64,000 nucleotides of DNA from Zygnema cylindricum. Its lineage: Eukaryota; Streptophyta; Zygnematophyceae; Zygnematales; Zygnemataceae. The translations under genes were made by a program, and so were the position numbers. The stretch is taken from the NCBI GenBank assembly GCA_037447655.1, contig JBBHKE010001471.1, positions 1-64,000 of the forward strand. Reading direction: 5' to 3'. Under the pieces are notes generated by a model, which had not been told where the DNA came from, did not search any database, and saw only the letters and a program-made list of their open reading frames with translations. Shown piece after piece: positions 6,946 to 53,151 of the stretch. Every line of letters starts with the position of its first letter. Position 1 is the stretch's first letter.

Positions 6946-7254
6946 TTACCGTCCACCAAAAGAAACTGACATCGGAGCAATATTGGAATCTCCTGCCAAT
7001 GACTGGTCTGAATACCTATCATAACGTCTATCAGACGGTGCCTCTTCAGTTGTCGCCTGACTTTCATCAATTCCAAGCATTAAACATTTCGTTTGCCCGA
7101 GACGCCGAGAAACTTCATCCATTTGAGGACGATATTTTGCAGCTCTTTCGGTACAAACCGACGCAATCTTAACCAGCATATTCATCGCCTCTTCGTGATA
7201 AATTCCCATTCGTGGGTCAACAACAGGGCCGATATCTGCCAAATAAGGTTGGAC
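6946..7254 (-). CDS. Receptor kinase last exon: kinase subdomain XI and C-tail
   Basis: The acceptor is ttttctgcag and the stop is TAA at 6946-6948. The exon opens [16 protein letters not shown] and contains [12 protein letters not shown], the conserved arginine of kinase subdomain XI. It ends in a serine-rich tail closing [10 protein letters not shown]. Phase 0 joins it to the TGG ending the previous exon. Confidence 0.88.
   Translation of the reverse strand, partial: VQPYLADIGPVVDPRMGIYHEEAMNMLVKIASVCTERAAKYRPQMDEVSRRLGQTKCLMLGIDESQATTEEAPSDRRYDRYSDQSLAGDSNIAPMSVSFGGR

Positions 7255-53151: not shown

Follow-up and report, generated by a model that had tools for sequence, protein, structure and literature searches.

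The window, i.e. the whole stretch of 64,000 nucleotides analyzed here, probably carries on its minus strand a single LRR receptor kinase gene with approximately 29 LRRs, the array of which would have been enlarged by duplication of exons encoding one LRR each, as judged from the genomic sequence. The gene model spans approximately 46 kb, and its first and last coding bases (53151 and 6946) coincided with the limits given in a first-pass annotation of this DNA (6946..53151). That annotation had also proposed one gene, and this was borne out: when the N-cap, kinase and cap region of the relative P0001 were used as query, the window yielded a single N-cap and a single set of kinase exons, which argues for one gene, and P0001 itself presented the same architecture in one uninterrupted ORF (1317 aa; longest contig, 4,730 nt). 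The architecture was also found in one uninterrupted frame in P0131 (1296 aa; contig of 4,424 nt) and P0200 (1259 aa; contig of 4,462 nt). Because these three contigs are so short, they probably represent cDNA, if their genes have introns like those of the window gene.

Gene model and membrane-proximal region

A likely signal peptide, LRRs, transmembrane segment and RLK-type kinase make up one predicted product, for which one juxtamembrane exon was not found. The model contains at least 39 introns (median 693 bp, longest 4,752 bp), with AG at 39 of 39 acceptors and GT at 38 of 39 donors, the single GC donor being that of the intron after kinase exon 1. Eight Pfam families were matched, all of them LRR or kinase families, and no Rfam match was obtained in the window at the gathering threshold. 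Numbering exons from the start codon, E1 (53079..53151, minus strand, as for all exons below) bears the start codon and a hydrophobic leader, a likely signal peptide assigned by inspection. The LRR N-cap (W...C.YW.GL.C) lies in E2 (51287..51413) and was assigned by inspection and homology to P0001, the Pfam LRRNT_2 model not being reached at 0.001. E3 (50753..50908, 156 bp) encodes the first LRR with an N-terminal insert; an initial choice of its acceptor was dropped and replaced after comparison with P0001.

Downstream of the array, E31 (19430..19561, 132 bp, phase 2-2) holds the final one or two LRRs, and E32 (18580..18880) encodes a six-cysteine cap (NPLC...CC) together with the first half of a juxtamembrane domain. 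A probable Pro-rich exon ahead of the membrane (16897..16962) was placed on a weak, low-complexity match to P0001 and on an out-phase that fits the transmembrane exon (14914..15006), the latter assigned by inspection. The kinase is encoded by exon 1 (13437..13660; G-loop and catalytic Lys), exon 2 (12795..12930), exon 3 (12409..12563; HRDIKSDN), exon 4 (8662..8810; DFG and activation segment), exon 5 (7592..7700) and the last exon of the gene (6946..7254), which carries the kinase end, the tail and the stop codon. The motifs of an RD kinase were intact, namely the catalytic Lys (AVK), HRDIKSDN and DFG.

The six-cysteine cap pattern next to the membrane (NP.C...C...C..C...C.C), which was written after seeing the sequences it was scored on, was present in 18 of 23 proteins, the window's among them (algal-type, 8 of 10; VIII-1-type, 10 of 10; other LRR kinases, 0 of 3). 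Among all fetched proteins, families pooled, it was matched by 67 of 352, and by 0 of 352 after shuffling. Within the kinase clade, P0317 and P0308 gave no cap match. Regarding the juxtamembrane domain, the model of P0187 (13 sequences; mean pLDDT 74, pTM 0.48) displayed a strand-helix-strand-strand-helix-strand succession at residues 230-338, mostly with pLDDT >80. Read from this model, the domain of the family (18580-18880 in the window) would follow a SEA/ferredoxin-like order of elements. In a PDB fold search with the same model, the 50 rows listed were all kinases, and the juxtamembrane domain was unmatched among those.

An exon for the second half of this domain was not found between E32 and the transmembrane exon by open frames, codon usage or domain profile, in a search that allowed AG acceptors and GT or GC donors, with splice thresholds in part of it. 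Relatives have approximately 55-65 residues at this point, as read off the alignment, and E32 ends in phase 0 while the next placed exon begins in phase 1, so that the frame breaks without a missing exon. A candidate at 15215-15278 was dropped after comparison with P0001. The unfound exon may be cryptic, or its absence may stem from a faulty assembly or from a defect of this copy. A copy that is defective or in decay, i.e. a recent pseudogene, would agree both with the failure to find this exon and with the last cysteine pair of the cap, which is CC in the window vs. C.C in 17 of 17 other cap-bearing proteins. Nevertheless, this explanation was considered unlikely: E1 to E32 form one open frame of 912 codons and the Pro-rich exon to the gene end another of 412 codons plus stop, neither interrupted by a stop or a frameshift, every acceptor is AG, and the HRD and DFG motifs are preserved.

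Repetitive DNA was observed both in the gene and elsewhere in the window. Within the introns lie repeats rich in GA or in TA, as well as a 38-bp minisatellite (13886-14554, 34867-35090, 16384-16671 and 11665-12041), and parts of a Copia-type retrotransposon were found as separate ORFs at 59736-62835 on the minus strand, including gag (PF14223, 62266-62835) and reverse transcriptase (PF07727, 60837-61235).

The array of single-LRR exons

Between E3 and E31, 27 consecutive exons encode one LRR each (from 49013 down to 21054), all with lengths that are multiples of 3 and with phase 2 at both ends. Thirteen of them measure 72 bp: E4 (48942..49013), E5 (48622..48693), E6 (47451..47522), E7 (47159..47230), E8 (46064..46135), E13 (39127..39198), E17 (36541..36612), E18 (33443..33514), E19 (33047..33118), E20 (32282..32353), E24 (27043..27114), E25 (26156..26227) and E26 (25611..25682). 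Six are of 69 bp (E11, 44361..44429; E14, 38925..38993; E16, 38321..38389; E21, 29268..29336; E23, 27668..27736; E27, 25295..25363) and four of 66 bp (E10, 44823..44888; E15, 38585..38650; E22, 29037..29102; E28, 24303..24368), while E12 (43951..44025) and E30 (21054..21128) have 75 bp, E29 (23806..23883) 78 bp and E9 (45070..45174) 105 bp. With one more LRR in E3 and one or two in E31, the total amounts to approximately 29, and the introns after E2 to E31 make up 30 phase-2 introns in a row. The first-pass annotation had described 23 consecutive LRR exons of 66-75 bp (one of 105 bp) and about 25 LRRs; the array itself was recovered, but its count had to be raised, 25 of the 27 exons being of 66-75 bp. 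Its statement that these exons are all phase 2 and frame-neutral held for 27 of 27.

The exons were detected by a scan for short exons with LRR-like translation, followed by a position-specific score derived from 26 of the 27 (the 105-bp exon was left out). Leave-one-out scores of the 27 exons ranged from 29.8 to 55.9. Outside the array, the best score for exons of 57-90 bp on both strands of the window was 14.8, on the plus strand, and the minus strand yielded no candidate of that size at threshold 12. Inside the array, the same threshold returned shifted versions of the LRR exons, two separate candidates (13.1 and 13.9) and part of E31 (27.9). In 20 first-order Markov surrogates of the 36-kb LRR region, no match reached 29 and the best was 16.4. 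Since the real scores lie far above the maxima obtained outside the array and in the surrogates, the array is not a product of chance.

Combinatorial splicing of these symmetric exons, as in brown-algal ROCO genes, would find suitable material in 27 frame-neutral single-LRR exons running in succession, and splice variants are given for 72-bp phase-2 LRR exons in the available part of PMC11378527. However, no spare, unused LRR exon was detected in the introns by the scan for exons of 57-90 bp, and P0001 and P0131 have preserved the order and lengths of the repeats, pointing to a fixed product; splicing of this kind was regarded as improbable. Still less credible is the notion that the model fuses two or three adjacent receptor genes, or their remnants, into one, for although long introns (4.8, 3.0, 2.9 and 2.7 kb) divide the array into blocks, and blocks opening with a DLS.NNF repeat recur (E12, E18 and E25), the window holds only one N-cap and one kinase set, the LRR phases all fit, and P0001, P0131 and P0200 contain a comparable array in one ORF. 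For the single receptor gene favored here, the modular ectodomain described earlier was confirmed, single-LRR phase-2 exons being found throughout the array.

Family placement and history of the array

The kinase phylogeny was based on 46 rows chosen by hand, namely the window plus 45 of the 352 proteins fetched, and rooted at the midpoint. The window grouped with P0001 and P0131 (95/89), and with P0001 as a pair (95/62), inside a clade of 20 algal-type rows (100/99), the named ones being seven from Closterium and one with the gene code Mesen1, which we take to be Mesotaenium. The other 26 rows were land-plant kinases as far as named, one of them (P0268) being without a name; liverwort, fern and seed-plant rows fell outside the algal-type clade, pine and Ginkgo rows being presumed such from their gene codes. 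With Closterium and Mesotaenium as its nearest named kinase relatives, the gene would most likely come from a freshwater streptophyte alga. Ten VIII-1-type rows formed one clade (98/93), a label given to P0301 and P0345 by database family name, to P0273 by its name At1g06840, and to seven by similarity. Constraining the algal rows together with these ten cost 3.18 log units (p-AU 0.378), so that a union of the two is not rejected, though the tree does not demonstrate it either. In a profile search with cap and kinase, in which the window's own segment formed part of the profile, the best full-coverage land-plant matches among the best 120 of 3491 were VIII-1-type proteins; land-plant rows of higher rank match approximately one-third to one-half of the query, and the two that were checked, P0242 and P0251, have several kinase domains each.

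The window gene combines the algal-type kinase clade, approximately 20 or more LRRs and the cap, and it would best be placed near LRR-VIII-1, as a large relative of algal type whose membership is unproven. HPCA1 is an LRR-VIII-1 receptor, and the assignment of the gene to its family in the first-pass annotation stood only in part: the cap and the best full-coverage land-plant matches agreed with it, but the LRR number did not, and the kinase belongs to an algal-type clade distinct from the land-plant subfamilies sampled, for which a union with VIII-1 is neither demonstrated nor rejected. Two further proteins are of interest as regards ectodomains. P0286 (Logan, 724 aa), from the same algal-type kinase clade, is listed with LysM (PF01476) and without LRR, which suggests ectodomain swapping in that clade. 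In P0075 (Closterium sp. NIES-68, 1581 aa), an algal LRR kinase, whole blocks of N-cap plus LRRs are seemingly repeated several times with Cys-bearing segments between them, and this seems a different route to ectodomain enlargement.

LRRs were counted in 24 proteins by one method (threshold 6.5, stray matches included). There were 28 matches in the window, 26 each in P0001, P0131 and P0200, 24 in P0063, and 20 each in P0246 and P0243. P0317 (Mesotaenium) and P0308 gave 12 each, the partial proteins P0289 and P0187 gave 5 and 8, the ten VIII-1-type proteins 11-14, and three land-plant LRR kinases of other types 24, 31 and 34. With shuffled sequences the average was 1.75-5.4 matches, so that single weak matches are loose. 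When matches lying far from the array were discounted, 26, 25, 25, 22, 20 and 19 LRRs remained in the six large relatives with a cap. Many LRRs are common among LRR kinases in general; only with this type of cap and kinase is such a number unusual. These counts agree with the earlier claim that LRR-VIII-1 receptors have far fewer LRRs (11-14 vs. 28). The count in relatives that had been proposed as a check placed the window highest among the algal-type proteins counted, but a large array is not peculiar to it. Since six full-length capped relatives have 19-26 LRRs, much of the array would be older than the window gene.

In order to compare the arrays, the window was cut into 29 repeat units from E4 on. 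P0001 provided 26 units (one false N-terminal unit dropped), of which 26 of 26 paired in order with the window, and P0131 provided 25 (two N-terminal units dropped), which paired with 25 of the 29 window units, both pairings being made without a shuffle control. Three window units had no partner in P0001 and were also lacking in P0131; they were placed as E5, E6 and E7, although the assignment of the three additions within E5-E8 is uncertain. Likewise, P0131 shows only two units of that kind ahead of the long repeat of the 105-bp type, which is common to P0001 and P0131 and served as landmark (E9 in the window). P0131 is without one further unit, whose place is unsure, as it moves when P0001 and P0131 are paired directly. 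At the DNA level, E8 is closest in sequence to E5 and E6 (E6/E8 79%, E5/E8 74% and E5/E6 68% identity), and the similarity scarcely extends past the exons, implying that the gain is not very recent. As P0131 lies outside the pair of window and P0001 in the kinase tree, the simplest history would be a gain of three exons in the lineage of the window; loss of three repeats in both P0001 and P0131, or a P0001 contig derived from a skipped-exon transcript, would be less simple. The growth by exon duplication put forward in the first-pass annotation is supported by these three extra repeats and by the DNA identities of E5, E6 and E8.

Repeat order was also conserved in P0200, with a score of 407 vs. 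319 for the best of 200 order shuffles (0 of 200 as good), but not significantly in P0063 from Closterium (28 of 200 shuffles as good) or P0317 from Mesotaenium (59 of 200). For four land-plant proteins compared on behalf of LRR-VIII-1, the shuffles as good were 1 of 200 (P0345), 48 of 200 (P0324), 63 of 200 (P0322) and 137 of 200 (P0301), the order being significant in one of the four, P0345. At least part of the family would thus have an old, ordered LRR array. More tentatively, an old VIII-1-like family of streptophyte algae with an ordered array of approximately 25 LRRs may be envisaged, from whose common ancestor with land plants either the VIII-1 receptors of the latter, such as HPCA1, contracted to approximately 12 LRRs or the algal ones expanded, with changes in length by whole single-LRR exons, as in E5-E7.

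Proposed mechanism and comparison with known systems

From what is known of the family, the extracellular LRR solenoid would serve as a binding platform for a ligand from outside the cell. The resulting change would reach the membrane by way of the cap and juxtamembrane domain, and phosphorylation would be started by the RD kinase, probably together with a partner that has a short LRR region. In-frame duplication of exons with one LRR each would have enlarged the array. Much of this growth would be old, and a younger event would have added three exons, placed as E5-E7, next to E8. This is likely a polarised case of a receptor ectodomain enlarged by three whole LRR exons. It would also tie the land-plant subfamily that includes the peroxide sensor HPCA1 to very large receptors of algal sister lineages. 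Tests could then address whether the VIII-1 receptors became smaller or their algal counterparts larger, and whether signal sensing by the cysteine cap predates plant life on land. HPCA1 perceives peroxide via an extracellular domain with four cysteines, according to the available part of PMC9893415. Extracellular cysteines, which sensing of the HPCA1 type would require in a peroxide-reactive form, are present in the window protein.

No description of large algal receptors of this kind was found among the open PMC papers listed, as judged from titles and abstract openings; PMC10868138, as far as its available text goes, reports RLK counts in charophytes. The closest known proteins are the algal-type receptors of the Logan contigs P0001, P0131 and P0200 and of Closterium sp. 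NIES-68 (P0063, CLOM_g9733), which resemble the window gene in N-cap, six-cysteine cap, juxtamembrane domain, transmembrane segment and RD kinase and have 19-26 LRRs. The first three share its repeat order, whereas that of P0063 is not demonstrably kept; the window differs in having 29 repeat units vs. 26 in P0001 and in a cap that ends in CC.

Among land plants, the LRR-VIII-1 receptors (At1g06840-like) share the six-cysteine cap but differ in the number of LRR matches, and the window kinase does not lie inside their clade as sampled. Subfamily XIII-2 is the ERECTA group. In the available part of PMC5296948, 18-19 introns are given for VIII-1, whose genes are conserved, and 26 for XIII-2, so that VIII-1 and the window gene, with its minimum of 39, are both intron-rich yet differ in number. 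The intron-rich LRR-kinases of rice have one 72-nt phase-2 exon per LRR, as in the window, but with at most 27 exons and in other subfamilies, and the authors propose exon duplication and shuffling (PMC3050792, available part). As this layout is usual in those rice kinases, it is not peculiar to the window gene; one LRR per phase-2 exon was seen directly in the window, and the land-plant side of the comparison comes from rice LRR-kinases at large and from the VIII-1 intron number, as stated in the accessible portions of PMC3050792 and PMC5296948.

Farther away, Tetrahymena LRR arrays have uniform phase-2 exons like the window, but these are of 90 bp and belong to a ciliate (PMC6564038, in the portion available). 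The brown-algal ROCO genes also have one 72-bp phase-2 exon per LRR, with exon shuffling and duplication, splice variants and up to 49 LRRs, but they encode LRR-GTPases in a lineage unrelated to that of the window gene, and the accessible text of PMC11378527 ascribes diversifying selection to them as well as splice variants.
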